From: Pseudomonadota bacterium
GTDB taxonomy: Bacteria; Pseudomonadota; Gammaproteobacteria; Burkholderiales; Rhodocyclaceae
Length of the DNA stretch: 64,000 nucleotides
Reading direction: 5' to 3'
Assembly (NCBI GenBank): GCA_018261905.1
Contig: JAGTRU010000010.1
Span: forward strand, 1-64,000
Shown: in pieces, positions 4,070-28,628 of the stretch
Layout: each line of letters starts with the position of its first letter
Numbering within the stretch: the first letter of the stretch is position 1
Program-made: the position numbers and the translations under genes
The notes under the pieces: generated by a model
What the model was told of the DNA's origin: nothing
What the model saw: the letters and a program-made list of their open reading frames with translations, nothing else
The model's database searches: none

Positions 4070-4307
4070 GGTCATTTCTCCCGCTACGATGGGTTGGCTG
4101 GCGCCGGCGACGGCCTTGGCTGGCGGCCAGCCACCAGGCAAGTCGGGTCCGGCTTGGGCTTGGCCGATATTTTACCTGGCCTGCTGGCGGTTCTTCCGGC
4201 GTAGAATGAAAGTGCTGCGTTGCAGCATCCGGCGTTTCCGGGCCAGACCGGAACAGCGAGCGGCTGCCAGCTTGCGTCGAGGCGTAATCGAACACCAGGA
4301 ACAGAAC

Positions 4308-7926
<3,619 letters not shown>

Positions 7927-7934
<8 letters not shown>

Positions 7935-10389: not shown

Positions 10390-11979
10390 TCAGTGCCGAT
10401 GGGATTTCTCGACCTTGTCGACCTTCTCGACCTTGTCGACCTTCTCGACCTTGTCGACCTTCTCGACCTTCTCGACCTTCTCGACCTTGTCGACCTTCTC
10501 GACCTTCTCGACCTTCTCGACCTTCTCCACCTTCTCGACCTTCTCCACCTTCTCGACCTTGTCGACCTTCTCGACCTTCTCAGCCTTCTCAGCCTTCTCA
10601 GCCTTCTCCGACTTCTCCGACTTCTCCGACTTCTCCGACTTCTCCGACTTCTCCGACTTCTCCGACTTCTCCGACTTCTCGGCCTTCTCGGCCTTCTCCG
10701 ACTTCTCCGACTTCTCTGATTGTTCCAATTTTTCCGTCTTGGCGGAATTCTCGGATTTTTCGAGATTTTCGGTTGTTTCAGTCGTCAGGGTTGTTTCAAT
10801 CTGGTTTTCGATTGGCGTTAGCCCCTGAACTGTTTCCAAGGCCGTGCTTTTGTCGGTCTTAATCAGTTCGAGATGTTTGGTCGACAGCTTGCCGTTGGCG
10901 CCAACGTCTGCTTCGATGAAAACGCGCTGGTTGGGTCTGAGATGTTTACTTTGTTCCATCGTCTTGCCAGAAACGGCCAACTCAAGACCGGCCGTTCGGA
11001 TATTCCCGTGACCATCGAGCGATTGAACCAGACCTTCGACCAGGATCTTGCCGACATTTTCTTTGAAGCGATAGGTTGGATCGGCCTGGATGGAACTCGG
11101 GACCAGTTCGTTGCCCTGCCATTTGCCCGATATCATTGCCGACTTGGCATTGGTGATCAGTCCGGCGATGGAAACGCCATTAACCGTCGGCTGGGGCTTG
11201 CCGGTGTTTGCGATCGCGCCGATGACGCTGGCCCGCTGGAGACCGGGGGCCGGTTGAATGCGGGTGGCGAATAGTTTTCCGTTGGCGCCGACCAGCGCGC
11301 TGACCTTGACTTGTTGGCCGAGGGCCAGGGCGTTGCCCGGAATTCGGGTGCCGGGCCCGACGTTGACGGTCTGCCCGAGAACCTGGACGGCACGAGCGCC
11401 GTGCATCAGCTTGGTGATTGGTCCTTCCAGTGCATGGAGCACGGAAATGTCCCGCGCTTGCAGACCTTTTGGCGTATGGAAGGCTTCGATCGAGACGACT
11501 TGGCCGACGGCCAGCATTTCTGCCGAAGACGGGGTGCCGTTGTCGCTGACTGGTGTCCGCTGGTCGAAGTTGATCTCGACGCCATTGACGCAAACCGAAG
11601 CGAAACCGCTGATGACTCCGACGATGCCAATCGAGCCCGCTTCGGCCACCGGCATGCCGGTGCCGCCGATTCCCCCGGTCGCCGCCGGCGACCCAGTGCC
11701 GCCTATGCCGTGTGCGGCCGGGGCGCCGGTGCCGCCTATGCCCCGGATGGCGGGTGCGCCGGTACCGCCAATGCCGCGGACGGCGGGTGCGCCGGTGCCG
11801 CCAATACCGCCGGTATCACCGCTGTTGGCTTGTTGGACCGCTAAAGGACTACCGGTACCGCCAATGCCACCGCGCGCCGGGTGCGTTTTTTCCGGCTGTT
11901 CGGGATCAACGCAAGCTGGGGCTGACCAAGCGATCAACGGCAGGATGGCGAGAAGCAGTGCCCAGAGTCCGCGTTTCAT
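10390..11979 (-). CDS. Exported DUF5666 protein with GIGGTG repeats and an EKx tripeptide tail
   Basis: A 529-residue secreted protein of unknown function. Layout: signal peptide (MKRGLWALLLAILPLIAWSA); residues about 36-112 with six GIGGTG(A/S/M)P repeats; about 115-390 with roughly four consecutive DUF5666-like beta-barrel modules (GVISGFASVCVNGVEI..., AVQVLGQTVNVG..., VIGAIANTG..., ILVEGLVQSLDG...); then a C-terminal tail of about 37 tripeptides of the type EKS, EKA, EKV and DKV ending HRH. The tail is extremely charged and may form a single charged helix or stay extended. The ATG overlaps the stop of the upstream DUF6502 gene as ATGA, implying coupled translation. The DUF5666/DUF6502 pairing recurs in betaproteobacteria as far as I recall. 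No enzymatic motif is visible. Confidence 0.85.
   Translation of the reverse strand: MKRGLWALLLAILPLIAWSAPACVDPEQPEKTHPARGGIGGTGSPLAVQQANSGDTGGIGGTGAPAVRGIGGTGAPAIRGIGGTGAPAAHGIGGTGSPAATGGIGGTGMPVAEAGSIGIVGVISGFASVCVNGVEINFDQRTPVSDNGTPSSAEMLAVGQVVSIEAFHTPKGLQARDISVLHALEGPITKLMHGARAVQVLGQTVNVGPGTRIPGNALALGQQVKVSALVGANGKLFATRIQPAPGLQRASVIGAIANTGKPQPTVNGVSIAGLITNAKSAMISGKWQGNELVPSSIQADPTYRFKENVGKILVEGLVQSLDGHGNIRTAGLELAVSGKTMEQSKHLRPNQRVFIEADVGANGKLSTKHLELIKTDKSTALETVQGLTPIENQIETTLTTETTENLEKSENSAKTEKLEQSEKSEKSEKAEKAEKSEKSEKSEKSEKSEKSEKSEKSEKAEKAEKAEKVEKVDKVEKVEKVEKVEKVEKVEKVEKVDKVEKVEKVEKVDKVEKVDKVEKVDKVEKSHRH
10402..10734 (-). repeat. Tandem 9-bp repeat encoding the (E/D)K(S/A/V) tail
   Basis: About 37 consecutive 9-bp units, variants of GACCTTCTC, GCCTTCTC(A/G) and GACTTCTCC on the plus strand. 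They are ordered in blocks: EKV/DKV units nearest the stop codon, then EKA, then eight EKS, then mixed units. The near-identical block structure indicates growth by slippage or unequal recombination. Because the unit is 9 bp, changes in copy number keep the reading frame. Confidence 0.93.
11652..11876 (-). repeat. Imperfect tandem repeat encoding six GIGGTGxP units
   Basis: Six near-identical GGCATTGGCGG-type segments, read on the minus strand, encode GIGGTG followed by A/S/M and P. They sit just after the signal peptide of the DUF5666 protein. Units are about 33-45 bp apart and differ mainly in the spacer (AVR, AIR, AAH, AATG). The glycine-rich stretch is likely flexible. Confidence 0.85.
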
Positions 11980-12992: not shown

Positions 12993-13238
12993 TTACGAGC
13001 TTGGCTGGCGTTTCTGTAACAAATTTAGTGTTTTGTCAGCAGAGCGGCGCCTGATGTTCTGTCCGGCCATGGTTCCTGAAACAACCGAATGTATGGCCGC
13101 TATCCTTTCTCGATCGTCTGTGGGATATCTTCCCCCTTTTGTCATCGGTGGTAAAGAAAAGTTTCCGGCGCCAGACCCGGTTTTCCTGCCGGAGTGGTGG
13201 CCATGACGAAGTTCGATGACCGTCGAAGTGTTGCTCAT
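12993..13238 (-). CDS. Possible small hypothetical protein (uncertain ORF)
   Basis: An 81-codon open frame whose ATG overlaps the stop of the Fe-S/FAD oxidoreductase gene as ATGA (13238-13235), an arrangement common in coupled genes. The product (MSNTSTVIELRHGHHSG...) has no signal peptide, membrane segment or motif I recognise. The surrounding region (12831-13234, about 400 bp) is poorer in GC than its neighbours, and I see no other gene, RNA or clear terminator in it. The frame may be accidental. Confidence 0.3.
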   Translation of the reverse strand: MSNTSTVIELRHGHHSGRKTGSGAGNFSLPPMTKGGRYPTDDRERIAAIHSVVSGTMAGQNIRRRSADKTLNLLQKRQPSS

Positions 13239-14530
13239 TCGCCATAATGGGTTTCGACCTTGACCCCGATTTTTTTCAGCATCGGGGTCGGCAACTCGCC
13301 ACCGGCACAGACAATGATGGCGTCGTTATCCCGTTCCAGCACGGCGTCTCCCTTTTTCAGCAGGACCTTGTCGGCGGTGATTTCCTGCACGGTACTTTCC
13401 ATCAGTTGTTCGATTTGACCGTTGGCTATGGCTTCGGCCAGTCGTGTGCGGTTCTTCGGCTTGACCCGGTCGAAGGCCTTGCCGCGATAGCTCAAGGTGA
13501 CTTTCGTCTCAGCTTCGTTGCTGATGTCGAGCGCCGCTTCGAGCGCACTGTCGCCGCCGCCGACGACCAGTACCGTTTTGCCTTGATACTGCTCGGCCTC
13601 AATCAGTCGGTACACCACTTTCGCCTGTTCTTCGCCCTTGGCGCCGAGTTTGCGCGGTGTGCCGCGCCGGCCGATGGCGAGCAGAATGCTGGCCGCCGTG
13701 TACTTGGCCTTGTTGGTGCGGATCGCGAAGAATTCCTCGCCCGGCACGACTTCTTCCATCCGTTCGCTGAACTTGATATTGGGCTGCGCCTTCTTGAGCA
13801 CGGAGGTCCAGATTTCCATCAGTTCTTCCTTGCTCACCTCCCTGACCTTGATTTCGCCGATCAGTGGCAAGTTCATGGGCGCCGTCATCACCAGTTTGTT
13901 GCGCGGGTAGTGGTAGGTGGTGCCGCCCAGCGAATCTTCCTGTTCGACGGTGACGTATTTCAGGCCGGCCTCCTTGGCCGCCAGCGAGGCGGCGATGCCG
14001 GCCGGGCCGGCGCCGATGATGACGAGATCGAGCTCGGCCTGGCCGCGGGGGCGGGTGGCAATGCTGTTGACGGCCTGGACGCCCTGGCGGATGGCATTGC
14101 GGATGAGGCCCATGCCACCCAGTTCGCCGGCGATGAAGATGCCGGGAATGTTGGTTTCGAAATCGGGATTGACCTGCGGAATGTCCATGCCGCGTTTGGC
14201 GGTCCCGAATACCAGCTTGATGGCGCCGACCGGACAGGCCGGCGCGCAGGCGCCGTGCCCGATGCAGTGCGTCGGATTGATCAGCACCCCCTTGCCTTTG
14301 ATGACGCCCAGCGCATGTTCCGGACAAACCCGGGCGCAGGCGCCGGAGCCCATGCAGATCGAAAGATCGACCACCGGGTGCAGCGAAGGCGGTTCGGTCA
14401 AGCCGGACTCTTGGGCTTCCTTGAGTACGGCGTTGTGTTTCTCCGAGGCCAGCCGCTTGGCGCGCAGGTGAAAGAGCAGGGGAATCAGGATCAGCAGCAG
14501 GGGCGGGAGGTAGTAGATCAGGTCGGACAT
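13235..14530 (-). CDS. Membrane-anchored ferredoxin-domain FAD/NAD(P) oxidoreductase
   Basis: A 431-residue protein likely to carry electrons between NAD(P)H and membrane or cytochrome partners. N-terminal membrane anchor (residues about 4-21). A two-cluster ferredoxin-like segment follows: C59-S62-C65-C69-P and C89-H92-C95-C99-P, in which the usual second Cys of each motif is Ser or His. Then a pyridine-nucleotide-disulfide oxidoreductase fold with the FAD motif VIIGAGPAGIAAS and the NAD(P) motif VLVVGGGDSALEAALD. There is no CxxC redox pair, so it is not a thioredoxin reductase despite the resemblance. It is transcribed away from the cytochrome genes, with a 179-bp divergent spacer. Family resemblance is clear; the electron partner is inferred from context. 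Confidence 0.85.
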   Translation of the reverse strand: MSDLIYYLPPLLLILIPLLFHLRAKRLASEKHNAVLKEAQESGLTEPPSLHPVVDLSICMGSGACARVCPEHALGVIKGKGVLINPTHCIGHGACAPACPVGAIKLVFGTAKRGMDIPQVNPDFETNIPGIFIAGELGGMGLIRNAIRQGVQAVNSIATRPRGQAELDLVIIGAGPAGIAASLAAKEAGLKYVTVEQEDSLGGTTYHYPRNKLVMTAPMNLPLIGEIKVREVSKEELMEIWTSVLKKAQPNIKFSERMEEVVPGEEFFAIRTNKAKYTAASILLAIGRRGTPRKLGAKGEEQAKVVYRLIEAEQYQGKTVLVVGGGDSALEAALDISNEAETKVTLSYRGKAFDRVKPKNRTRLAEAIANGQIEQLMESTVQEITADKVLLKKGDAVLERDNDAIIVCAGGELPTPMLKKIGVKVETHYGE

Positions 14531-14709
14531 CGTGGCGCTATCTGCCTTCTCGGCAAAAAAGGTTGGTGCTCGGCTTAGTGAAATTTGTTATTCTCTGTGC
14601 CGTGTGAAATTTTACCTCGTCACTGGCTCCGGCTGAAAGCTTCATTTGCATCGAGCGGTGTCGAGCATTGCCGATCCTGGGCTGGCCTCAACCTATTTGT
14701 GGGAAATGT

Positions 14710-15624
14710 GTGACGACGGAGACGCTTGATACATTGACGGATATTTCGCTGGAAAGCGAAGCAAAACTCTCGTGGGAGTGGATTCGCCGCTTTCTCGGGC
14801 GTCTTGCCATTCTGCTCTTGTCTGCTCTGCTGCTCTTCCTGGCCTGGCAGGTCAGTGCCGGGCATCTCTACGAGGCCGGTTCCGATTTTGGCTACAACCT
14901 CGGCCTGGTCGGCGGTTTGCTGATGCTCGCCTTGCTCCTCTATCCGCTGCGCAAACGCTGGGTCATTTTTGATGACCGCTTCGGGAAAATGGAGTCCTGG
15001 TTCAAGTTTCACATGGTTGCGGGCATCGGTGGTCCGCTGTTGGTGCTTTTCCATACTACTTTCCGGGTCGGCTCGACCAATGCCGCGGCCGCTCTCTATT
15101 CGATGCTGCTGGTTGCCGGGAGCGGCATTCTCGGGCGCTTTATCTACCGCCACATCCATCACGGATTGTACGGTCGGCAAGTGGCGCTGAGCGAGGCGAC
15201 GGCCGATGTCGAAGCGGCTTCGGAATGCATGGGCTCGATTTACGCCTTGCGGGCCGATATCGAACCACGCATGCGGGATTTTCGCGAAATGGCTTTCGAT
15301 CCGCGCGGCACCCTGTCGGGGCGCGTCTGGAAATTCATGACCCTGCGCTGGCGTAGCCATCGCTTGGCGAAAAGCATTCGCTTTGATGCCAAGACCGAAT
15401 TGGTCAAACGCTGGCGCCAGGAACGCGGTCCGCGCCGCGAACTGGTCCTCAACTACCGTCTGGCCCGCGAGCAAATTGATCATTACCTCGAGTCGGTCGT
15501 CAAAGCTTCGCAACTGACCGTCTGGGAACGGCTGTTTTCCTTGTGGCACCTCGTCCATGTCCCCTTCTTGTATTTGCTCGTTTTCAGTGGAGTCGTTCAT
15601 GTCATCGCGGTCCACATGTATTGA
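14710..15624 (+). CDS. Histidine-rich integral membrane protein, putative b-type cytochrome subunit
   Basis: About 304 residues with four hydrophobic helices near residues 30-49, 61-80, 101-117 and 118-136, a charged cytoplasmic segment (about 145-270) and a last helix at the C-terminus. Histidines cluster in or beside helices: H101 and H115 in the third, RHIHHGLYG after the fourth, and LWHLVH...VVHVIAVH in the last, a pattern expected for heme b ligands. It overlaps the 24-heme cytochrome gene by 26 bp, so it probably passes electrons through the inner membrane to that protein. Start uncertain: GTG 14710 (GGGA 5 nt upstream) is preferred, TTG 14668 is possible. I do not recognise a named family; the heme-binding role is inferred. 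Confidence 0.78.
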   Translation: MTTETLDTLTDISLESEAKLSWEWIRRFLGRLAILLLSALLLFLAWQVSAGHLYEAGSDFGYNLGLVGGLLMLALLLYPLRKRWVIFDDRFGKMESWFKFHMVAGIGGPLLVLFHTTFRVGSTNAAAALYSMLLVAGSGILGRFIYRHIHHGLYGRQVALSEATADVEAASECMGSIYALRADIEPRMRDFREMAFDPRGTLSGRVWKFMTLRWRSHRLAKSIRFDAKTELVKRWRQERGPRRELVLNYRLAREQIDHYLESVVKASQLTVWERLFSLWHLVHVPFLYLLVFSGVVHVIAVHMY

Positions 15625-17437
15625 TCGGCTGTTCCGCAGCTTCTTGCTGTTCGCTTGCCTGCTGGTGGCGGACGGTGCCCGCGCCCAGTTGATCGAAAAG
15701 GTGCTGGCGCCGGGCGAAGTGATTGAAGGTCATGCCAAGTACGAGCATGAATGCAAACAATGCCACCAGAATTTCAACAAGGCCGGGCAGAGCAAGCTGT
15801 GTCTCGACTGCCACAAGGATGTTGCCAAGGACGTTGCGGCCAAGAAGCGTTTGCACGGCAAGCTTGAGGACACGACGTGCAAGACCTGCCATACCGACCA
15901 CAAAGGGCGGAAGGCCAAGATCGCCGTGGTCGACAAGAACAAGTTCGACCACGGGCGGACCGAGTTCCGCCTGAACGGGGCGCATGCCGAGATCCGCAAC
16001 AAGTGCGAAAGCTGCCATAAGCCGAAGGCCAAATTCCGCGAGGCGCCCAAGCTTTGCAACGACTGCCATGCCAAGGTCGACCAGGAAAAAGGCCATAAGG
16101 GCAAGCTCGGTAGCAAGTGCGAGACCTGCCACAACGAGAAGAAGTGGACGGAGACGACCTTCGACCACGAAAAGACCAAATTCCCGTTGGTTGGCGGCAA
16201 GCACTTTGAAGTCAAGTGCAAGGAATGTCATGCCGACAAGACCTACCAGAACACGCCGCTGACCTGCAACGGCTGCCACAAGAAGATCGACCAGGAAAAG
16301 GGGCACAAGGGCCGCTATGGCAGCAAGTGCGAAACCTGTCACAACGACAAGGGCTGGAAGGAGATCGATTTCGATCATGACAAGGACACCAAGTACGCCC
16401 TGAAAGGCAAGCACCGCCAGGCCAAGTGCGATACCTGCCATCTGCCGGAGAAGGGCTTGCTCTATCAGGCGCAGAAGTTGCCGACGCGCTGTGTCGCCTG
16501 TCACAAGAAGGACGACCAGGAAAAAGGGCACAAGGGCGGCCTGGGCGAAAAGTGCGAAACCTGCCACAACGAGCGCAACTGGAAAAATTCCACGTTCGAC
16601 CATGACGATACCAAGTTCCCGCTCCGCGATAAACACAAGGACGCCAAGTGCGACACCTGTCATACGGGCGGGGTTTCCGGTCCGAAGGCCAAGCTGAAGC
16701 TGGAAATGACCTGTATCGCCTGTCACAAGAAAAACGACGATGAAAAGGGTCACAAGGGCCGCTACGGCAACAAGTGCGAAACCTGCCACACGGCCAAGGA
16801 ATGGAAGAAGAGCACCTTCAACCACGACAAGGACACCAAATACCCGTTGCTAGGCAAGCATCAGGAAACCAAGTGCGACGCCTGCCATTTGCCGGCGCTC
16901 GGGCCGATCTACGGCAGCAAGATTGAAAAGACCTGTATCGCCTGTCACAAGAAGGACGACAAGCACAAAGGCCAACTCGGCACTGACTGCGCAAGCTGTC
17001 ACAACGAAAAGCGTTGGCAGGATTCGCCCTACGACCACAACAAGGCGCGTTTCCCGCTAACCGGCAGTCACGCCAAGGTCGAGTGCAAGAAGTGCCACCT
17101 GACGCCGGCTTTCCGCGACGCGCCGCTGACCTGTAACGGTTGTCACGAAAAGGACGACAAGCACAAGGGCCGCTTCACCAAGAAGTGCGAAAGCTGTCAC
17201 TACACCGGGACCTGGAAATCCTGGGACTTCGACCACGCGAAGACGCGCTACCCGCTGGATGGCGCCCACCTCAAGGTCGAGTGCTATGACTGCCACAAGG
17301 AGCCGAAGCCGGGGACGCCGAAGTTGAGTAAAACCTGTGTTAGCTGCCATCTCAAGGACGACGTCCATAACGGCGAGTTCTCGGCGCAGTGCGAGCGCTG
17401 TCATGTGAGCGCCAACTGGAAGAAGGTTAGACGGTAG
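15599..17437 (+). CDS. Periplasmic 24-heme c-type cytochrome
   Basis: A 612-residue exported protein with 24 CxxCH heme-attachment motifs by my count. Start ATG 15599 gives a clean signal peptide (MSSRSTCIDRLFRSFLLFACLLVADGARA-Q); it overlaps the upstream membrane gene by 26 bp. The mature part is built from repeats of about 80 residues with three hemes each (CETCHN..W..T.FDHD.TK(F/Y)PL.GKH...KCDTCH...CIACHKKDD.EKGHKG). Extra histidines (FDH, GKH, KGHKG) occur at about one per heme, consistent with bis-His low-spin hemes. The protein is very rich in lysine, unlike the giant cytochrome downstream. It most likely relays electrons in the periplasm between the membrane subunit and the giant cytochrome. 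Confidence 0.95.
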   Translation: MSSRSTCIDRLFRSFLLFACLLVADGARAQLIEKVLAPGEVIEGHAKYEHECKQCHQNFNKAGQSKLCLDCHKDVAKDVAAKKRLHGKLEDTTCKTCHTDHKGRKAKIAVVDKNKFDHGRTEFRLNGAHAEIRNKCESCHKPKAKFREAPKLCNDCHAKVDQEKGHKGKLGSKCETCHNEKKWTETTFDHEKTKFPLVGGKHFEVKCKECHADKTYQNTPLTCNGCHKKIDQEKGHKGRYGSKCETCHNDKGWKEIDFDHDKDTKYALKGKHRQAKCDTCHLPEKGLLYQAQKLPTRCVACHKKDDQEKGHKGGLGEKCETCHNERNWKNSTFDHDDTKFPLRDKHKDAKCDTCHTGGVSGPKAKLKLEMTCIACHKKNDDEKGHKGRYGNKCETCHTAKEWKKSTFNHDKDTKYPLLGKHQETKCDACHLPALGPIYGSKIEKTCIACHKKDDKHKGQLGTDCASCHNEKRWQDSPYDHNKARFPLTGSHAKVECKKCHLTPAFRDAPLTCNGCHEKDDKHKGRFTKKCESCHYTGTWKSWDFDHAKTRYPLDGAHLKVECYDCHKEPKPGTPKLSKTCVSCHLKDDVHNGEFSAQCERCHVSANWKKVRR

Positions 17438-17601: not shown

Positions 17602-20600
17602 ATGAAATACATTGCCCGACTCCTCTTTGCATTTATTGCCCTGGCCTTCATTTCTCTTGGGCAATGGGGAGTTGCGTTCGGGCAAGGTGCGGCACAGAGC
17701 CTTAATTTTGACCACAACACGACGGGTTTCATCCTTGATACGCCGCACCGCCTGGTGGCCTGTGAATCCTGTCACACCTCCGGCGAGTTCAGGGGGACGC
17801 CGCGCGTCTGCTCGATTTGCCATGCCGGGGCCGGGGCGCGCGCCCCGGGCAAGTCGGCAATGCATATTCCGACGACGGCAGCCTGCGACTCCTGTCACCG
17901 ACCGGGGGCGGTCAACTGGAGCGAACGGCCGACCGGATTTACGCAGGGCGGCACGGGGCACCCGATCAACCCGCAGTTGGGAGTGACGGCGACCAATTGC
18001 CAGACCTGCCATAACGGGGGCTTTATCGGGGCCAATGCGCTGGCCAAGACGGCGACGCATATCCCGAGTTCGAATACCTGTAGCAACTGCCACGGTACGA
18101 CATCCTGGACGCCGGCCACCGGTCAGCACGAAGGTGTGTTGCCCGGTACTTGTGGGACTTGCCACAATGGCGTTAAAGCGACCGGAAAAAAGGCAGACCA
18201 TATTCCGACGACTAGCGCTTGCGATAGCTGCCACAATAATTATGTCGCCTTCGTGCCGGCCCGGATGAATCACGCCGGGCTTGATGGTCAGTGTTCGACC
18301 TGTCATACCGGGCGCTATTCCTCCCAGAGTGCCCAGAGCAAACCGGCAACCCATATCGTGACGCAGCCCGGCGCGCAGTGCGACAGTTGCCACCACTCGA
18401 CGGTTTCGTGGGCAACCGTGACTTTCGATCACGCCAATCGTCCGGCCGGAAGCAAGTGTACGGATTGCCATAACGGCACCGTAACCGGCTTGGGCAAGCC
18501 GGCCGGTCATGTCCCGACCAGCGCGACCTGCGAAACCTGTCACAGCAATTTTGTCTCGTTCAAGCCGGCGCAGATGAACCATGACAGCACGGCCGGTCAG
18601 TGCTCGACCTGCCACAACGGTGGCTTTGTTTCGATGAATGCTCTCGGTAAATCCGGTCGGCATATTCCCACCACCGTCCAGTGCGACTCCTGTCATACCC
18701 GGGGGTTTGTTTCCTGGACTCCGGCGGTGATGAGTCATGCCGGTCTGGAGGGCGCGTGCGCCAGTTGTCACAGTGGCGGTTACTTGCCGCAGAATGCCCA
18801 AACCAAGCCGGCGACACACATCGCAACGACGGCCCAGTGCGACACCTGTCACAACTCGACATCAACCTGGGCCACCGCAGTCTTCAATCATGCCGCCGCC
18901 AGCCCTCCGGTGGCCGGACGCTGTTCTAGCTGCCATAACGGCACCAATGGTCTGGGCAAGCCAGTTAACCATATTCCGACTGTCGCCCAGTGTGATAGCT
19001 GCCACAACACTACTGTCTTTAAAGCGATTTCGATGAATCACGCCGGCACGGCCGGGAAATGTACGACCTGCCATAACGGCAATTTTGTCTTTGCCAATGC
19101 GCTCGCCAAATCGGGGGTGCATATTCCGACCAGCGCGCAATGCGATACCTGCCACACGGGAGGGTTCACCGCCTGGTCGCCGGCCGTGATGAACCACAGC
19201 GGCCTGAACGGCAAATGCACGGATTGTCACAGCGGGGGCTATACCTCGCAGAACGCGCTGGTCAAGCCGCTGACCCACGTCAGTACGACGCAGCAGTGCG
19301 ACACTTGCCATACCTCTACCAGCAAGTGGGGGATGGTGTCATTTATCCATAGCGTCACGGCGACCGGAACCTGCAATACGTGCCACGGTACGAGCGCCCT
19401 TGGCAAGCCGGCGACGCACATTCCGACGGCGGCCCAGTGCGATAGTTGTCACAATAATTTCGCGGCCTTCAAGCCGGCCCGAATGAATCACGCCGTCAGC
19501 ACCGGTGAGGCCTGCGCCACCTGCCATGGCGGCGCCTATGTCTCGCAGAATGCACTGGCCAAACCGACGACCCATATCCAAACCACGGCCTCCTGCGAAT
19601 CCTGTCACGGCACCGGCTACAGCACTTGGACGACGGTTTCCTTTGACCATGCCGCAGTCACTCCCGCCGTTGCCGGCCGGTGTTCGACCTGTCACAACGG
19701 AACCAGTGCCCTCGGCAAGGCGGCGGGTCATATTCCGACGGCGGCGCAGTGTGATACCTGCCATAAGAATTTCACCGTTTTCAAGCCGGCCCAAATGGAC
19801 CATGCCGGAACCGGCGGGCAGTGCGCGACTTGTCATGACGGCAGCTACGCCGCGGTCAATGCGCAAGGCAAGCCGGCAGCGCACATTCCCGTGACGACGC
19901 AGTGCGATACCTGCCACACCGGTGGTTTCGTCAGATTCTCGCCGGCCACCATGAGTCATGCCGGGCTGACCCAGTGCGCGACTTGCCACAGCGGAACCTA
20001 TGTCTCGCAAAACGCGCAGATCAAGCCGGTCACCCACATCCCGACCACTGCCGAGTGCTCGACTTGCCACAATTCGACCACTTCGTGGGCGACCGGCACC
20101 TTCAATCATGCGACGGCCTCCCCGGCGGTCACCGGGCGCTGCGCGACCTGTCATAACGGGACGACGGCACTGACCAGCAACGGCAGTATCGGCAAGCCGA
20201 CGACGCACATCCCGACCAGCGCCCAGTGCGATACCTGTCATAACAATTTCACCGCCTTCAAGCCGGCCCAGATGAACCATGCGGGGACCGCCGGTCAGTG
20301 CTCGACTTGCCATGGCGGCGGCTATACCGGGATGAACGCGCAGACCAAGTTGCCGACTCACGTCAGCACGACGGCGCAATGCGACACCTGCCATAGTTCG
20401 ACCACGCTGTGGACGGCGGTAACCTTCGTCCATGCCCCGACGGCGTTTGGCAACTGTGCCACCTGCCACAACGGGACCACGGCGCAGGGCAAGACCGTCG
20501 GTCATATTCCGGTCGGGACCCAGCAGTGCAGCAACTGCCACCGCAATTTCAACAGCTTCAAACCGGCGGTGATGAGCCACGTCGGGACGAGCGGAGCCTG

Positions 20601-23600
20601 CACGACCTGCCACAACGGCAATTTTGTTGCCCAGAACGCGCTGTCCAAGCCGGCTATCCACATCCCGGTGACGACGGAGTGCGATACCTGCCACGTCAAC
20701 GGCTTTACCAACTGGGCGCCGGCGGTGATGAGCCACAGCGGCCTGACCGATTGCGCCGGCTGTCATAGCGGTGCCTACCTGGTACAGAATGTGCAAGTCA
20801 AGCCGGCCACCCACCAGGTGACGACGGCGCAGTGTTCGAGTTGCCACAGTTCGACGCTCTCCTGGGCGACGCATACCCAGGATCACGCGGTGTTGAGTCC
20901 GCCGGCCGCCGGGCGCTGCAGTACCTGCCACAATTCGACCATCGCCCTCGGCAAACCGTCGACCCACGTGCCGACGGTCGCCCAGTGTGATAGCTGCCAT
21001 ACCAATTTCGTCGGCTTCAAGCCGGCGCAGATGAACCATGCCGGAACCACCGGCCAGTGCGCCACTTGTCATGCCGGGGCCTACACCGGGCAAAATGCGC
21101 TGGCCAAACCGGCCACCCACATCGCGACCAGCCAGTCGTGCGATGTCTGCCACGCCACCGCCGCCTGGAAACCGACTTCCTTCGGCCACCAGGCCGTGAC
21201 CGCCGGCAGTTGTGCCACCTGCCACAATGGCAGCAGCGCCCGGGGCAAGCAGGCTTCCCATATTCCAACCAGCGCGGCCTGCGATTCCTGTCACAAGAAT
21301 TTCGTTGCCTTCGCTCCGGCCCAGATGAACCACAACGGTACGCTCGGCCAGTGCTCGACCTGTCACAACGGCAGCTATCTCCGGGTCAATGCGCAGACCA
21401 AGCCGACCACGCACGTCCTGACCAGCGTGCAGTGCGATACCTGCCATAGCTCGACGACGAGCTGGGCAACGGCAACTTATGTTCACGATGCCGCTGCGGT
21501 AACCGGCAAATGCAACACCTGTCACGGGACGACGGCGCTCGGCAAGCCGACCAACCACATTCCGACCAGCGCCCAATGCGACACCTGTCACGGCAACTTC
21601 ACGGCCTTCAACCCGGCCCGGATGAACCATGCCGATACGGCCGGAAAATGTACCTTCTGCCACAGCGGCTCCTTCGTGTACGCCAACGCCCTGGCCAAGC
21701 CGGCCGCCCATATTCCGGTCACCGAACAGTGCGATAGCTGCCACAAGAGCGGATTCGTTTCGTGGTCACCGTCGGTGATGGATCACAATGTTGCTTCGGT
21801 CAAGGGGCAGGGGTGTGCCACTTGCCATAGCGGTGCCTATCTGTCGCAGAATGCACAGATCAAGCCGCCGACGCACGTTGTGACCACCGCGCAATGCTCG
21901 ACCTGCCATACCTCGACAAGCAGTTGGGCAACGGCAACCTTCAATCACACGGCCGCGGGTGTCGTCACGGCGAATGTCTGCTCGACCTGCCATGACGGTC
22001 TGCCCGGCCTGTCCCATGGCCTCGGCAAGTCGACCAACCATATCCCGACGACCGCGCAATGCGATACCTGTCACCAGAACTTCGCGGCTTTCGCCCCGGC
22101 GACCATGAATCATGCCGGGACGGCAGGTGCCTGCACAAACTGCCACAGCGGGAAATATACGACCCTGAATGCGCAGGCCAAGCCATCAACCCACATCCCG
22201 ACTGGATCGCAGTCCTGCGATGTCTGCCACTCGACTACGGTCTGGAAGCCAACGACCTTTGCACACGCCGGAGTGACCGCCGGGAGCTGCGCAACTTGCC
22301 ATAACGGGACGAATGCCTCGGGCAAGAAGGTTTCCCATATTCCGACCGCGGCCGTCTGTGATAGCTGTCACAAGAATTTCGTTACTTTCGTGCCGGCCCA
22401 GATGAATCACACCGGAACGGCCGGGCAATGTTCGACCTGCCACAGCGGCGCCTTTGTCGGGGTCAATGCCTTGACAAAATCGGCCAGCCACGTCAGTACG
22501 ACGGCCCAATGCGATACCTGTCACGCCTCGACGACAACCTGGGCCAATGCGACTTTTGCCCACGCGGCAAGCGCTGCCGGGACCTGTTCGACCTGCCATA
22601 ACGGGACGACCGCCTTGGGTAAGTCAGGGACTCACCTCCCGACCAGTCGGCAGTGCGACAGTTGCCATAAGAATTTCCTGGCTTTCAAGCCGGCGCAAAT
22701 GGACCATACCGTCGGTGCAACCGGGCAGTGCTCGACTTGCCACGGCGGAGCCTTTGTTTCCATCAATGCGTTGGCCAAACCCGTCAGCCATATTCCGGTT
22801 ACCGAGCAGTGCGACTCCTGTCACAAGAGCGGATATGTCTCGTGGTCCGCAGCGGGCGTGGATCACACGCTGGCATCCGTTAAAGGTCAGGGTTGTTCGA
22901 CTTGTCACGGCGGCGCCTATGTCTCTCAGAATGCTCTGGCGAAATCGGCAACCCACGTCACCACGACCGCGCAATGCGATACTTGCCACGCCTCGACGAC
23001 CAGCTGGGCAAACGCCAAATATGTCCATGCCACGTCGTCGACCGGCACCTGTTCGAATTGCCACAATGGAACGATTGCCCTCGGTAAGCTGGCGACTCAC
23101 CTGCCGAGCAGTCGGCAATGCGATAGCTGTCACAAGAATTTCCTGGCTTTCAAGCCGGCCCAGATGGACCATACGCTCGGTGTGGCCGGACAGTGTTCCT
23201 CTTGTCACAACGCGACCTACGCTTCGCTCAATGCCCTGGCCAAGCCGGCCGCCCATATCCAGGTCACTGAACAGTGCGATGCCTGCCACAAGAATGGGTT
23301 TGTCTCGTGGTCGCCGTCGGCGATGGATCACAACGTAGCATCCGTCAAAGCGCAAGGCTGTGCGACTTGCCATAGCGGCGCCTATCTCTCGCAGAATGCG
23401 CAGATCAAGCCGCCGACGCACGTTGCGACCACCGCGCAATGCTCGACCTGCCATACCTCGACAAACAGTTGGGCAACGGCGACCTTCAATCACACGGCCG
23501 CCGGTGTCGTCACGGCGAATGTCTGTTCGACCTGCCATGACGGTCTGCCCGGCCTGTCCCATGGCCTCGGCAAGTCGACCAACCATATCCCGACAACCAG

Positions 23601-25947
23601 GCAATGCGATAGCTGCCACAAGAACTTCACGGCTTTCGCACCGGCGACAATGGATCATGCCGGGACGACTGGGGCATGCCTGAGCTGCCACGATGGGAAA
23701 TTCACAAGCTTGAACGCGCTGGCCAAGCCGGCAACGCATATTCCGACGGGTACTCAATCCTGTGATGCCTGCCATGCGACCACGGCTTGGAAGCCCACTA
23801 CCTTTGCTCATACCGGTGTCGTTGCTGGAAGTTGTTCCACCTGCCATAACGGAACCAGTGCGCGGGGCAAGGGGGCAACGCATATTCCGACCTCGGCGCT
23901 TTGCGACTCCTGCCATAAGAGCTTTGCGACATTTGTCGCCCCACCGTCTCAGATGAACCACACCGGTACGGCCGGCCAGTGTTCGACCTGCCACGGTGGT
24001 GCTTATGTTGCGATCAATGCCTTGAAGAAACCGTCCAACCATCTGAGCACGACAGCGCAGTGTGATACCTGTCACGCTTCGACGACCACCTGGGCGGGGG
24101 CAACGTTTGCCCATCCGCCAACAGCGACTGGAACTTGTTCGACCTGCCACAACGGGACCACCGCACTAGGCAAGTCGACCAGTCACATCCCGACAACGGG
24201 CCAATGCGACACTTGCCACAAGACATATACCGCCTTTGTCCCGGCGCAGATGAACCATACGGCGACAGCGGGCAAATGTGCGACTTGTCACAGCGGCGGG
24301 TACACCACCGTGAATGCGCAAGCCAAGCCGGCGACGCACATTGTGACGACGCAGTCGTGCGATGTCTGTCACTCGACCACCGCCTGGAAACCGACGACTT
24401 TCGCCCATACCGGCGTGGTCGCCGGAAGCTGCGCCACCTGCCATAACGGAAGCACTGCCCGGGGCAAGAATGCGACGCACATCCCGACCACGGCCGCCTG
24501 CGATTCCTGCCACAAGAATTTCACGGCTTTCGCGCCCGCCCAAATGAACCATACCGGCACGGCCAGCCAGTGTTCGAGCTGCCACAGCGGGGCTTATGTC
24601 GCGGTCAATGCCCTGGCCAAATCGGCAACCCACGTCAGCACGACGGCCCAGTGCGACACCTGCCACAAGTCGACGACGGTGTGGACCGGTGCCACCTTTG
24701 CCCATCCGGCAACGGCGGTCGGCACCTGTTCGAACTGCCACAATGGGACAACGGCGATCGGCAAGCCGGCGACCGGCACGGGCCATATTCCGACGACCAG
24801 CCAATGCGACACCTGCCACAAGAACTACACGGCATTCGCCCCGGCCCAGATGAATCATGCCGGGATGGCGGGAAAATGTTCGACTTGTCACAGCGGCACC
24901 TACCTGGCACAAAATGCCCTGGCCAAGACGCCGACGCACATTGTGACGACGGCGCAATGTGACACCTGCCATACCTCGACCACCACCTGGGGAAGTGCGA
25001 CTTTCGCCCACCCGGCAAATGCCGCCGGGACCTGTTCGACCTGCCACAACGGGACGACGGCCAAGGGCAAGCCGGCAACCCATGTCCCGACGACCAGCCA
25101 GTGCGATACCTGTCACACCAATACCACGGCCTTCGTGCCGGCCAGGATGAACCACACGGGGACGACCGGCAAATGTGCGACCTGTCACGGCGGCGCCTAC
25201 ACGGCGGTGAATGCGCAAGCCAAGCCGGCAACGCACATCCCGACGACGCAGTCGTGTGACGTCTGCCACCTGACGACGGCCTGGAAACCGACCAGCTTTG
25301 CCCACACCGGGGTGGCTGCCGGTTCCTGCGCGACCTGTCACAACGGCACGGCGGCGGTTGGCAAACCGGCCCTGCACATCCCCACGACGCAATCCTGCGA
25401 CGCCTGTCACCGCACCGGTGTGGCCTGGTTGCCGGTTATTACGCCCTATGCCCACACCGGCGTCGCCGTGGGTTCCTGCGCGACCTGCCACGTCAGCAAT
25501 TATCCGGGGATGGATTACAAGCCGGCCAACCATGTGCCGACGACGGCCAGTTGCGATGCCTGCCATCTGAGGACGGCCTGGACCACTCTTGCTGCCTATA
25601 ACCACGTTGGTGCGGTTAACTGCGAGACCTGCCATACCGGGACTTATCCGGGGGTGCGCGGCAAACACGCTAGCCATATCCCGACAACACTGGCCGGGAT
25701 GCTCGGTAACAAATGTTCAAACTGCCATGTCGGAACGACTACCTTTACTCCGCTCGCCAAGATAAATCACGGAAGCATGCAGACCGGATGCAAGACCTGT
25801 CACAACACCGGGTCGGTATACGATATTGGCAAGGGTGATCGAAAAACGCTCGGTAGCCACGAGGGCTCGAAAGCGGCAGACGATTGTTCGAAGAGCGGAT
25901 GTCATAAGCCTTTGGGGAAAGAGGGCTCGCTCTATACTTCTTGGTAA
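17602..25947 (+). CDS. Giant multiheme c-type cytochrome (106 CxxCH plus one CX4CH)
   Basis: A 2781-residue exported protein made almost wholly of heme-binding repeats. By eye I count 106 CxxCH motifs and a last CSKSGCH (CX4CH) near the C-terminus, about one heme per 26 residues. After the signal peptide (MKYIARLLFAFIALAFISLGQWGVAFG) a unit of about 100 residues and four hemes recurs some 26 times: HIPT..QCDTCH.NF.AF.PAQMNH, then CSTCH.G.Y...NALAKP.TH, then QCDTCH.STT.W..ATF.H, then G.CSTCHNGT.A.GK. Each unit offers four further His (MNH, TH, F.H, HIP), enough for bis-His ligation of every heme. The protein is rich in Thr, Ala, Gly and Asn and poor in charge compared with the 24-heme neighbour. 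No membrane anchor or lipobox is seen. A heme wire in the periplasm or across/outside the outer membrane is inferred. ATG 17602; ribosome site weak. Confidence 0.96.
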   Translation: MKYIARLLFAFIALAFISLGQWGVAFGQGAAQSLNFDHNTTGFILDTPHRLVACESCHTSGEFRGTPRVCSICHAGAGARAPGKSAMHIPTTAACDSCHRPGAVNWSERPTGFTQGGTGHPINPQLGVTATNCQTCHNGGFIGANALAKTATHIPSSNTCSNCHGTTSWTPATGQHEGVLPGTCGTCHNGVKATGKKADHIPTTSACDSCHNNYVAFVPARMNHAGLDGQCSTCHTGRYSSQSAQSKPATHIVTQPGAQCDSCHHSTVSWATVTFDHANRPAGSKCTDCHNGTVTGLGKPAGHVPTSATCETCHSNFVSFKPAQMNHDSTAGQCSTCHNGGFVSMNALGKSGRHIPTTVQCDSCHTRGFVSWTPAVMSHAGLEGACASCHSGGYLPQNAQTKPATHIATTAQCDTCHNSTSTWATAVFNHAAASPPVAGRCSSCHNGTNGLGKPVNHIPTVAQCDSCHNTTVFKAISMNHAGTAGKCTTCHNGNFVFANALAKSGVHIPTSAQCDTCHTGGFTAWSPAVMNHSGLNGKCTDCHSGGYTSQNALVKPLTHVSTTQQCDTCHTSTSKWGMVSFIHSVTATGTCNTCHGTSALGKPATHIPTAAQCDSCHNNFAAFKPARMNHAVSTGEACATCHGGAYVSQNALAKPTTHIQTTASCESCHGTGYSTWTTVSFDHAAVTPAVAGRCSTCHNGTSALGKAAGHIPTAAQCDTCHKNFTVFKPAQMDHAGTGGQCATCHDGSYAAVNAQGKPAAHIPVTTQCDTCHTGGFVRFSPATMSHAGLTQCATCHSGTYVSQNAQIKPVTHIPTTAECSTCHNSTTSWATGTFNHATASPAVTGRCATCHNGTTALTSNGSIGKPTTHIPTSAQCDTCHNNFTAFKPAQMNHAGTAGQCSTCHGGGYTGMNAQTKLPTHVSTTAQCDTCHSSTTLWTAVTFVHAPTAFGNCATCHNGTTAQGKTVGHIPVGTQQCSNCHRNFNSFKPAVMSHVGTSGACTTCHNGNFVAQNALSKPAIHIPVTTECDTCHVNGFTNWAPAVMSHSGLTDCAGCHSGAYLVQNVQVKPATHQVTTAQCSSCHSSTLSWATHTQDHAVLSPPAAGRCSTCHNSTIALGKPSTHVPTVAQCDSCHTNFVGFKPAQMNHAGTTGQCATCHAGAYTGQNALAKPATHIATSQSCDVCHATAAWKPTSFGHQAVTAGSCATCHNGSSARGKQASHIPTSAACDSCHKNFVAFAPAQMNHNGTLGQCSTCHNGSYLRVNAQTKPTTHVLTSVQCDTCHSSTTSWATATYVHDAAAVTGKCNTCHGTTALGKPTNHIPTSAQCDTCHGNFTAFNPARMNHADTAGKCTFCHSGSFVYANALAKPAAHIPVTEQCDSCHKSGFVSWSPSVMDHNVASVKGQGCATCHSGAYLSQNAQIKPPTHVVTTAQCSTCHTSTSSWATATFNHTAAGVVTANVCSTCHDGLPGLSHGLGKSTNHIPTTAQCDTCHQNFAAFAPATMNHAGTAGACTNCHSGKYTTLNAQAKPSTHIPTGSQSCDVCHSTTVWKPTTFAHAGVTAGSCATCHNGTNASGKKVSHIPTAAVCDSCHKNFVTFVPAQMNHTGTAGQCSTCHSGAFVGVNALTKSASHVSTTAQCDTCHASTTTWANATFAHAASAAGTCSTCHNGTTALGKSGTHLPTSRQCDSCHKNFLAFKPAQMDHTVGATGQCSTCHGGAFVSINALAKPVSHIPVTEQCDSCHKSGYVSWSAAGVDHTLASVKGQGCSTCHGGAYVSQNALAKSATHVTTTAQCDTCHASTTSWANAKYVHATSSTGTCSNCHNGTIALGKLATHLPSSRQCDSCHKNFLAFKPAQMDHTLGVAGQCSSCHNATYASLNALAKPAAHIQVTEQCDACHKNGFVSWSPSAMDHNVASVKAQGCATCHSGAYLSQNAQIKPPTHVATTAQCSTCHTSTNSWATATFNHTAAGVVTANVCSTCHDGLPGLSHGLGKSTNHIPTTRQCDSCHKNFTAFAPATMDHAGTTGACLSCHDGKFTSLNALAKPATHIPTGTQSCDACHATTAWKPTTFAHTGVVAGSCSTCHNGTSARGKGATHIPTSALCDSCHKSFATFVAPPSQMNHTGTAGQCSTCHGGAYVAINALKKPSNHLSTTAQCDTCHASTTTWAGATFAHPPTATGTCSTCHNGTTALGKSTSHIPTTGQCDTCHKTYTAFVPAQMNHTATAGKCATCHSGGYTTVNAQAKPATHIVTTQSCDVCHSTTAWKPTTFAHTGVVAGSCATCHNGSTARGKNATHIPTTAACDSCHKNFTAFAPAQMNHTGTASQCSSCHSGAYVAVNALAKSATHVSTTAQCDTCHKSTTVWTGATFAHPATAVGTCSNCHNGTTAIGKPATGTGHIPTTSQCDTCHKNYTAFAPAQMNHAGMAGKCSTCHSGTYLAQNALAKTPTHIVTTAQCDTCHTSTTTWGSATFAHPANAAGTCSTCHNGTTAKGKPATHVPTTSQCDTCHTNTTAFVPARMNHTGTTGKCATCHGGAYTAVNAQAKPATHIPTTQSCDVCHLTTAWKPTSFAHTGVAAGSCATCHNGTAAVGKPALHIPTTQSCDACHRTGVAWLPVITPYAHTGVAVGSCATCHVSNYPGMDYKPANHVPTTASCDACHLRTAWTTLAAYNHVGAVNCETCHTGTYPGVRGKHASHIPTTLAGMLGNKCSNCHVGTTTFTPLAKINHGSMQTGCKTCHNTGSVYDIGKGDRKTLGSHEGSKAADDCSKSGCHKPLGKEGSLYTSW
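21771..22100 (+). repeat. First arm of a recent in-frame duplication inside the giant cytochrome gene (second arm about 23316-23645)
   Basis: The segment around 21841-22072 recurs almost unchanged at about 23386-23617, an offset of 1545 bp (515 codons, 20 hemes, five four-heme units). Both arms carry the otherwise unique protein strings MDHNVASVK and DGLPGLSHGLGKSTNHIPTT. Only a few percent of bases differ over at least 230 bp, much less than between other repeat units, so this is a young duplication that lengthened the gene by whole units. Confidence 0.85.
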
Positions 25948-26174: not shown

Positions 26175-28628
26175 ATGGCTGGGCGAATCTTAAAAAATGC
26201 CATGTTTTTGGCGAGGGTGGCGAAATTCGCCCGTTTCATTCTGGTTTTTACCCTGCTGGCCAGCGCCAATGCTTTCGCGAATATCATCGATACGATCGAT
26301 ATCGCCCGGGTTGGCGATCAGGCCGAGGTGACCATCCGCTTCGCAACGGAAATCCAGTACACGCGCCATACGCCGGACGATGAAGGAAAATACCTGCGCA
26401 TCTTCTTTCGGGTAACCAAGCCGGGGTTTTCCGAGAACGAGATCATGCAGGAAATACGGCGTTCGCCCAAAAGCGACCTGATTCCCCCGTTCACCGTCGC
26501 TTATCCCGAACTGGTCAATGGAATGTTGATCACCTTTGCCAAGACGACCAAGTACGCGGTGCGGGCCGGCGAGGATAGTCGAAGCATCATCATCATGGTG
26601 CTGGCGCCGCCCGAGAAGAAGCTTCCGGCGCCTGTCGTCGAATCGGCGCCAGCCGCCGTGGCGGTCGAGCCGGCGCCCAAGGCGGCCGAAGCCAGCGCCC
26701 CGTCGCCAGCCGGCAAGAAGAAGGGCAAGGGCGCCGTTGCCGCCAGTCCGACTCCTGCTCCCGTGGTGGTTACAACGCCTGGCGTGGTGGCGGTGACCGC
26801 TGAACAGCCGGTGCCCGTCGAGGCGGCGGCGAAGCAGATACCGGATGCCGAAAAGCCTGCCGTAGCGGCCGCGCCGCTATCGGCAGAAAAGGTCGAAGAG
26901 ATGGCCCATGCCTTCCTGCTCGACGGCCAGGAGGCCTTCGCCAAGGGCGATTACGCCAAAACCATCAATCGCATGAACCGTATCCTGAGTCTTCCCGGCA
27001 ATGCCCAGACCATGTCGGCCCAGGCCTTGATCGGCGAGGCGCGCGAGAAAAATGGCGAGATCGCCAAGGCGCGGGCCGAATACGATCTTTATCTGAAGCT
27101 TTACCCGACCTCCGGCGATGCGCCTCGCATCAAGGAGCGTCTTGCCGCACTGCCGGCGGTCAATGTCATCAAACGCCCGGTGACGCGGGTGACGCGTGAC
27201 GACAAGCCGGCCGAATGGACGTTTAACGGCAGTCTGTCCGGGTACTTCTTTGCCGGCCAGTCGAAACAGGACGAAGGGCCGATGAAACGGGATCAGGAGT
27301 CGCTGATTTCGTCGTTGAATTTCAATGCCCGGCGCCGCGACTCGGTGACCGATACGCGCTTTGTCTTTCGCGATACCGAAAATCGGAATTTCATGCAGCC
27401 CAGCCGGAATTACAATCGGGTCTATTCCGCCTATGCCGAGCGGACCGATCGCGAGATCGGCTATTTTGTCCGGGCCGGTCGGCAGAACCCTAACGGTGGC
27501 GGTGTGCTCGAGCGCTTCGATGGCATCACCGGCAGTTATAACCTGACCCCCGACTGGAAGGTGGGCGCCGTGTATGGCGATGCCGTCGAATTCGGCTCGC
27601 CATTCAAGAAAAAATTCTACGGGGCCAGTGTCGAACTGGCGCCCCAGGTCTCCCGCCCCGGCGCCAGCCTCTATGCCATCGAGCAGGAAATTGACGGCTT
27701 TCTGAATCGGCGTGCCGTCGGTTCCGAGTTTCGCTACTTCGACGGCCAATTCACCGGCTTCGGCATGCTCGACTACGACCTGCTCTACAAAGGCCTCAAC
27801 ATCGGCATGCTGCAGGCGAATTATCTGGATCAGTGGGGCAATAATTATTTCATGTCCTATGACTACCGGAAGAGCCCGTCCTACAGTCTGACCAACGCGC
27901 TGGCCACGGCCGGCTACACCACGGTGACCGATTTCGTCAATAACGTCGGCATCACGCAGGCCCGGCAACTGGTTTCCGACAGTACCGCCTTGTCTACCAT
28001 GTTCGCGACGGGGGTGACCATTCCGGTGGGCGAAAACTGGCAGTTCGGTGTCGATTACCGGATGTCCCAGATTTCCGGCACCACGTCGACCCTGCCCCTC
28101 AGCCAGATGTGCAAGGAACTGCAGGACGAAGCCAACCCCAACGATCCCCTGTGCGTCGACGGGCCGCGCGGCACCTTGCGGATTTCCGAGATGGGCATCT
28201 GTCAGGTCGATAGCTATGACATCATCACCAAGACCTGCCGGGCCAGTGCGGAAGCTTCCGGGCGGACCAATATGTATTCGGGGCAAGCCATCGGTACCAA
28301 CCTGTTCGTGCCGAATGGCGTGGGCGTGGCCTATTTCGGCTGGGTCGATGGTCCCAACTATACCGGTCAGAACCTTGGCCTGAGTTATATCTACCCCTTC
28401 ATCGAAAGCTGGCGTCTGGAAAACAACGTTCGCTATTACACTCAGAAAAGCGATAACGGGCAGAATACAACCCAGTTTTCGCCGAGCGTAAGGCTGGTCT
28501 ACCAGTGGCGCAGCACCTTGTCCCTGGAGGGGGAGCTGGGCTACAGCGATTCGAAGAATAGCGGGACGACGACGAGCAAAAATACTCGGCAATATCTCTA
28601 TCTCGGTATCCGCTGGGACTATCGCTGA
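26175..28628 (+). CDS. Outer-membrane beta-barrel protein with AMIN-like and TPR periplasmic domains
   Basis: An 817-residue exported protein. Signal peptide (ending ASANAFA-N); residues about 38-145 form a beta-rich AMIN-like domain (VGDQAEVTIRFATEIQYTR..., LRIFFRVTK); a Pro/Ala/Lys-rich linker; about 240-335 carry TPR-like helices (AFLLDGQEAFAKGDYAKTINRMNRIL); from about 350 to the end alternating amphipathic strands with aromatic girdles form a large barrel closing with YLYLGIRWDYR. It has four Cys in one loop region (MCKE...LCVD...ICQV...TCRA) but no CxxCH. Right behind the giant cytochrome it is a natural candidate for an outer-membrane sheath or anchor, comparable in role, not in sequence, to MtrB/PioB. 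Start ATG 26175; ATG 26202 is an alternative. Confidence 0.82.
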   Translation: MAGRILKNAMFLARVAKFARFILVFTLLASANAFANIIDTIDIARVGDQAEVTIRFATEIQYTRHTPDDEGKYLRIFFRVTKPGFSENEIMQEIRRSPKSDLIPPFTVAYPELVNGMLITFAKTTKYAVRAGEDSRSIIIMVLAPPEKKLPAPVVESAPAAVAVEPAPKAAEASAPSPAGKKKGKGAVAASPTPAPVVVTTPGVVAVTAEQPVPVEAAAKQIPDAEKPAVAAAPLSAEKVEEMAHAFLLDGQEAFAKGDYAKTINRMNRILSLPGNAQTMSAQALIGEAREKNGEIAKARAEYDLYLKLYPTSGDAPRIKERLAALPAVNVIKRPVTRVTRDDKPAEWTFNGSLSGYFFAGQSKQDEGPMKRDQESLISSLNFNARRRDSVTDTRFVFRDTENRNFMQPSRNYNRVYSAYAERTDREIGYFVRAGRQNPNGGGVLERFDGITGSYNLTPDWKVGAVYGDAVEFGSPFKKKFYGASVELAPQVSRPGASLYAIEQEIDGFLNRRAVGSEFRYFDGQFTGFGMLDYDLLYKGLNIGMLQANYLDQWGNNYFMSYDYRKSPSYSLTNALATAGYTTVTDFVNNVGITQARQLVSDSTALSTMFATGVTIPVGENWQFGVDYRMSQISGTTSTLPLSQMCKELQDEANPNDPLCVDGPRGTLRISEMGICQVDSYDIITKTCRASAEASGRTNMYSGQAIGTNLFVPNGVGVAYFGWVDGPNYTGQNLGLSYIYPFIESWRLENNVRYYTQKSDNGQNTTQFSPSVRLVYQWRSTLSLEGELGYSDSKNSGTTTSKNTRQYLYLGIRWDYR

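Follow-up and report, generated by a model that had tools for sequence, protein, structure and literature searches.

A giant cytochrome with 107 predicted hemes, probably the outer wire in a porin-cytochrome conduit of the PCC3 type

The DNA analysed here (the window, a stretch of 64,000 nucleotides from a betaproteobacterium) encodes a single polypeptide of 2781 residues with 107 predicted c-type heme sites. We are fairly confident that this giant is the extracellular cytochrome, and thus the outer electron wire, of a porin-cytochrome conduit of the PCC3 type. Its gene is the third of five in a cluster conserved among relatives (Table 1), following those of an inner-membrane protein (IMP) and a 24-heme cytochrome and preceding those of a porin with TPR and beta-barrel parts and of a CcmI/NrfG-like protein. 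PCC3 is a porin-cytochrome gene cluster composed of a porin, a periplasmic multiheme cytochrome (MHC), an extracellular MHC and an IMP (He et al. 2017, PMC5566968). The PCC3 paper proposed a wire role and placed the large cytochrome outside the cell (PMC5566968), and the function of PCC3 in extracellular electron transfer has been described as putative (PMC12442390). All four gene types occur together in the window, with the roles of periplasmic and extracellular MHC assigned by analogy, and judged by gene order and IMP motifs against the published descriptions the cluster is a PCC3 arrangement.

Table 1. Features of the predicted PCC3-type cluster, with positions in the window
Feature	Positions	Strand	Basis
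PCC3-type inner-membrane protein (IMP), 318 aa from TTG	14668..15624	+	motifs, hydropathy
24-heme cytochrome c, 626 aa, putatively periplasmic	15557..17437	+	24 CxxCH, Pfam Cytochrome_C7
Giant 107-heme cytochrome, 2781 aa	17602..25947	+	motif count, repeat analysis, Pfam
Recent internal duplication of the giant, first to second copy	21820..23664	+	offset 1545 nt, 20 hemes
Predicted outer-membrane porin, 817 aa	26175..28628	+	AlphaFold model pLDDT 78, Foldseek
CcmI/CycH/NrfG-like TPR protein, cytochrome c biogenesis, 401 aa	28705..29910	+	Pfam

The giant reading frame runs from an ATG to a single terminal stop. Our motif count of 106 CxxCH sites and one Cx4CH (CSKSGCH, the final heme site) agrees exactly with that of the first-pass annotation, which had been made from the letters of the DNA. 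In residue-shuffled versions of the protein, CxxCH occurred 1.3 times on average and at most 5 times (200 shuffles). All 214 cysteines fall within heme motifs, at 26.0 residues per heme. The calculated mass is 283 kDa for the bare polypeptide and close to 350 kDa once 107 hemes are added. Another 112 histidines lie outside the motifs and alternate with the hemes almost one to one, roughly one spare histidine per heme, so that bis-His ligation, also suggested earlier, is plausible for every heme of the giant. The earlier description of the protein as uncharged was overstated, as it carries 142 Lys and Arg and 88 Asp and Glu, a net charge of +54. The N-terminus is of the Sec type, as judged by eye, and because no cysteine precedes the first heme there is no lipobox and the giant is not a lipoprotein. 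Pfam Cytochrome_C7 matches 48 stretches of the protein. The profile TIGR03508 (DmsE/MtrA-type decaheme) reaches 353.2 when summed over 18 stretches, above its cut-off of 192.2, and the nanowire_3heme domain TIGR04257 also scores above cut-off; we read both scores as a probable effect of many heme repeats rather than as membership of these families. Compared with PDB sequences, the giant has no match at E 1e-5. An AlphaFold model of its last 16 hemes (406 residues, from a 16-row alignment) reached a pLDDT of 37 and a pTM of 0.21 and was not used.

The giant is strongly periodic. Mean similarity between heme segments reaches 1.08-1.74 when they lie an even number of hemes apart, with a peak at lag 4, and falls close to zero at odd distances (lags 1-12). 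The repeats seen by the first-pass annotation are therefore real, and its division into some 26 tandem four-heme units holds as an approximation, the indivisible period being two hemes, or about 52 residues. When the heme segments were clustered into six classes, those between hemes 4 and 105 fell into two strictly alternating classes. In comparisons with four relatives, roughly five segments at the start and seven to eight at the end tend to align with their positional counterparts, cleanly for L036 and L105 but for L023 and L031 with some exceptions; segments farther inside show no such tendency. On these patterns, the giant is a chain of two-heme modules in which recognisable N- and C-terminal caps flank a variable tract. 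This chain includes a recent internal duplication, across which hemes 53-58 correspond to hemes 73-78.

A repetitive gene of this kind could be an artefact of assembly or a gene in decay, a reading to which we give almost no credence. Besides the repetition itself, it draws on one relative, L025, a homologue with 78+3 hemes in a single-contig genome, whose frame is broken near the 5' end at a run of seven G (L025:7560-7820); the break may be either a sequencing error or a switchable tract. Against it stands the sequence of the repeats. The longest exact internal repeat of the window gene is only 68 nt, at 21982 and offset 1545, and collapse is therefore unlikely; at other offsets exact repeats reach 26 nt at most, and repeat lengths of this order are within reach of ordinary short reads. 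The best 300-nt block is 94% identical, again at offset 1545; among the remaining in-frame offsets that were compared, identity is 79.7% at most. The gene sits within a contig of 234,663 bases, and a search of its DNA in the 4.92 Mb, 68-contig draft genome returned its own gene as the sole match. Moreover, the 8.3 kb frame is intact and leaves no cysteine unpaired, and long homologues occur in independent genomes, those of L085, L086, L105 and L107 being intact on megabase contigs. Five 61-heme orthologues have kept 61 of 61 heme columns at protein identities of 77-97% with dN/dS of 0.09-0.12, which points to strong purifying selection on these orthologues. For the last 16 hemes of the window giant, dN/dS against three relatives was 0.15-0.23.

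The neighbouring genes resemble published PCC3 components. The PCC3 IMP is described as a protein of about 300 residues with five transmembrane helices, SGxxG in helix 4 and WX3HX13H in helices 3 and 5 (PMC5566968). The window protein has five transmembrane-like segments by hydropathy (residues 42-60, 74-92, 114-132, 141-159 and 295-313), WX3HX13H at residues 111 and 293 and SGILG, an instance of SGxxG, at 152. Its start is uncertain, with GTG 14710 or TTG 14734 as alternatives, and Pfam gave a sub-threshold match to cytochrome b561 (E 1.1). It adjoins the cytochromes in 13 of 16 relatives' stretches, the remaining three ending too early. The gene of the 24-heme cytochrome overlaps that of the IMP at its start (alternative ATG 15599), and its product has a period of three hemes (lag-3 periodicity) at 26.1 residues per heme, no match to PDB sequences at E 1e-3 and 26.9 bits to TIGR03508, for which the cut-off is 192.2. 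Published PCC3 cytochromes have 22-39 residues per heme and sequence repeats, and their porin has up to 42 strands (PMC5566968); the two window cytochromes, with 26.0 and 26.1 residues per heme and periods of two and three hemes, and a porin modelled with 22 strands accord with this description. Shared with PCC3 as published are thus the IMP with its doubled WX3HX13H and its SGxxG, a periplasmic multiheme cytochrome, a beta-barrel porin and a large repetitive outer cytochrome with few residues per heme that is rich in Thr, Ser, Ala and Gly. The heme numbers differ, however. Published outer cytochromes have a median of 34 hemes and at most 85, where the window's has 107, and the inner one has 24 where the published median is 21 (PMC5566968).

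In the AlphaFold model of the porin, a beta domain (residues 38-143) is followed by a disordered linker (148-232), TPR-like helices (237-325) and a beta-barrel (347-816), whose 22 strands were counted by hand in the predicted secondary structure. Matches to TPR/YfiO profiles are weak. Foldseek returned generic outer-membrane porins with low TM-scores of 0.15-0.30 by query length among the 50 matches listed of 1130, and MtrB is not among these 50. The porin has no match to TIGR03509 (MtrB/PioB) up to E 0.1 and none in a search on plasmids. Its N-terminal domain is possibly AMIN-like and peptidoglycan-binding. We do not claim such a domain, as Pfam found no match in five N-terminal porin fragments including the beta domain (window 26262-26640), and the profile match to PilQ is weak (E 0.35). 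The fifth protein matches Pfam Ig_CycH (E 7e-28) and TPR_CcmH_CycH (E 1.6e-19), and scores 47.5 bits to NrfG and 15.2 bits to CcmI, each under cut-off. Its gene lies downstream of the porin in 15 of 16 relatives' stretches and is absent after the porin in L034. A linked CcmI-like gene is a further difference from PCC3, for which the passages on the cluster in PMC5566968 do not mention one.

Relatives of the cluster show where its variation lies. Within the genus, 16 of 76 genomes have the porin; among genomes sampled more widely it occurs in 22 of 399 for the order and in 6 of 397 for the phylum. The samples overlap, and the genome of the window is part of every count. For a comparison of heme numbers, 40 stretches were examined, 14 of them excluded and the window added, giving 27 loci. 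The exclusions were ten stretches in which the locus is ended by the contig or the stretch (L028, L029, L030, L087, L090, L096, L097, L101, L102 and L104), three repeats of counted genomes (L037, L038 and L106), and L100, an exception to the four-part arrangement in which a porin and an 11-heme gene occur with no adjacent 24-heme gene in the fetched stretch. Outer heme numbers are counts of Cx2-4CH in stop-to-stop frames; L025 was counted as 81 hemes (78 + 3 across the frame break), L088 as 35 (three overlapping ORFs added together) and L034 as 12, with a second, 13-heme gene after its porin, and L094 was kept in the count with a porin interrupted by a stop.

Of the 27 loci, 26 have an inner cytochrome with 24 hemes and one has an inner cytochrome with 27, and the outer cytochrome ranges from 11 to 107. 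Among the 15 nearest loci the outer numbers are 61 (six loci), 63 (three), 77 (two), 81 (the locus with the frame break), 85, 91 and 107, all of them odd. In 11 pairwise heme-level alignments, every one of the 27 internal length differences is even, at 2 to 20 hemes, and the three odd differences are all gaps at alignment ends, in pairs that include L025 with its broken frame. The 11 pairs are not independent and alternating similarity favours alignment in phase, though the alternation is itself the point. Since these changes are even, the length quantum of the outer cytochrome in the near clade is, on these alignments, a two-heme module and not strictly a four-heme unit. In a FastTree phylogeny of inner cytochrome and porin, the sister group of the window locus, with its 107 hemes, is made up of one locus with 91 hemes and six with 61, with local support of 0.99 for the whole group and 0.97 for the sister group, so that by this tree the length of the outer chain has changed repeatedly within the genus.

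How such a conduit may work can be sketched from these parts. The IMP, with its five helices and two predicted b hemes, would exchange electrons with the quinone pool, and the 24-heme cytochrome would carry them through the periplasm into the 22-strand outer-membrane porin. From there, the 107-heme chain would extend the wire beyond the cell, perhaps by tens of nanometres, and its outer end could meet a mineral, a humic substance, an electrode or a partner cell. The large amount of heme attachment that this requires may be the task of the CcmI-like protein encoded in the cluster. Placing the 24-heme cytochrome in the periplasm and the giant outside follows the analogy with the published cluster; for the giant, we infer the extracellular location, conduction, length and substrate alike. 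In known cytochrome filaments the rise per heme is 0.7-0.9 nm, and a chain extended at this rise would measure 75-96 nm for the outer and 17-22 nm for the inner cytochrome. The first-pass annotation had already seen a molecular wire in the giant, a proposed role that gains from gene context, conserved synteny, purifying selection and likeness to PCC3. Its idea that one protein spans the periplasm and leaves the cell is, on the other hand, probably wrong in detail, as the near-fixed 24-heme neighbour appears to be the periplasm-spanning part, with the giant as the outer part.

Two other roles deserve consideration. If the giant stayed within the envelope as a periplasmic bundle or bridge, close to the earlier periplasm-spanning idea, the lack of a cysteine before the first heme, and hence of a lipobox, would be readily understood. 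It would also fit that no type II secretion gene is general among PCC3-positive relatives: within the genus, GspD scores above cut-off in 1 of 16 genomes with PCC3 and in 15 of 60 without it, and type II secretion as a general export route for the giant is accordingly unsupported. We nevertheless regard an envelope-bound giant as very unlikely, given that the adjacent 24-heme protein, near-constant in heme number, already suits that role, that the giant's own count varies almost tenfold, and that the PCC3 paper puts this component outside (PMC5566968). Alternatively, the giant may be mainly an electron store, a capacitor for intermittent acceptors or donors, whose length is not used for reach. 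Its very low residue-to-heme ratio of 26.0 is in line with this, and storage has been proposed in print for such proteins (PMC7399161, PMC11495043, PMC10734462). Storage alone, however, leaves unexplained both the pairing of a near-fixed inner with a variable outer chain and the linkage to a porin; we think it an unlikely main function, and one that could coexist with conduction.

Taking the giant as an outer wire, we tentatively put forward a broader idea, which we believe has a real though less than even chance of being right. The outer cytochromes of PCC3 would be length-adjustable nanowires, each a single polypeptide, in which the 24-heme inner cytochrome and the caps are near-fixed and the reach is set by the number of two-heme modules. 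In this one genus that reach would span 61-107 hemes (about 43-96 nm if extended, at rises per heme of known filaments), tuned to the distance of donor or acceptor.

Comparison with other systems shows what is and is not unusual here. Gallionellaceae PCC3 clusters have the same components, with inner cytochromes of 21, 24 or 27 hemes, but their outer ones have only 10-35 hemes (PMC10734462) against the window's 107. A Hydrogenophaga-type cluster of Burkholderiales likewise has a 24-heme and a larger, variable cytochrome, both before the porin, with heme number varying between close relatives; it differs in that the larger member has 49 hemes and the porin is likened to OmbB, and the unit of variation is not described in the passages on this cluster (PMC7399161). 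The logic of a porin and cytochrome conduit is shared with MtrCAB and MtoAB, whereas the absence of a TIGR03509 match in the porin and of a lipobox in the outer giant sets the window apart from MtrCAB, MtoAB and PioAB. As for filament cytochromes of the OmcS, OmcE and OmcZ type, neither window cytochrome matches PDB sequences (giant at E 1e-5, 24-heme cytochrome at E 1e-3).

The first-pass annotation placed the giant at the extreme upper end for bacterial cytochromes, which is fair, short of a record: 107 hemes lie above the published PCC3 maximum of 85, and 112 motifs are reported in a protein of a Paludibaculum metagenome-assembled genome (MAG), with more than 100 in some Bacteroidota MAGs (PMC11495043). 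An archaeal protein of Methanoperedenaceae has 113 hemes (PMC7082337). These proteins share the extreme heme number per polypeptide and belong to other phyla. Elsewhere, a bacterial protein with 86 motifs has been reported as expressed (PMC12133095) and a putative PCC component has 51 hemes (PMC6344600). Variation in heme number has been published before; new are the two-heme quantum and the contrast between a fixed inner and a variable outer chain, neither of which is stated in the passages of this literature that bear on such clusters.

As a mere curiosity of heme counting, then, 107 is no record. If the wire reading is true, the interest lies in one molecular wire that occurs in nature at a series of lengths, near-constant on the inside and from 11 to 107 hemes on the outside, a single genus covering 61 to 107. 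Such a series would permit tests of the way in which heme number affects conduction and storage, and of selection on cells for reach, and the two-heme brick with its end caps would offer a modular natural design for protein electronics.

The same genome holds a second conduit, in which a porin of the MtrB/PioB family (G000:C55:57611-59686, in L122), matching TIGR03509 unlike the window porin, is flanked by ORFs with 10 and 9 hemes. In another region (L124, G000:C1:130001-148000), a 919-residue frame with 11 hemes clusters with several ORFs of 3 or 4 hemes, and by these heme counts the region resembles the Uet pathway (PMC10734462). Because of these two regions, the organism looks electroactive. 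In the genus, RuBisCO occurs in 14 of 16 genomes with PCC3 and in 38 of 60 that lack it, a difference too slight to make a case for autotrophy.

Scans for promoters and terminators gave no excess over shuffled sequence. Divergent from the cluster and upstream of it lies a gene for a 4Fe-4S/FAD NAD(P) oxidoreductase (13235-14530, minus strand), which is overlapped on the opposite strand by an ORF lacking a Pfam match (13247-14578). Farther upstream, on the strand of the cluster, a pyruvate:ferredoxin/flavodoxin oxidoreductase (3834-7934) is followed by a DHO_dh-like ORF (7522-8937). Between these genes, positions 10406-10716 repeat a 9-bp unit some 35 times (consensus TTCTCGACC, 91% matches) at the 3' end of a minus-strand ORF with DUF5666 domains (10390-11979); the predicted tail of its product is a low-complexity three-residue repeat that could vary in length.
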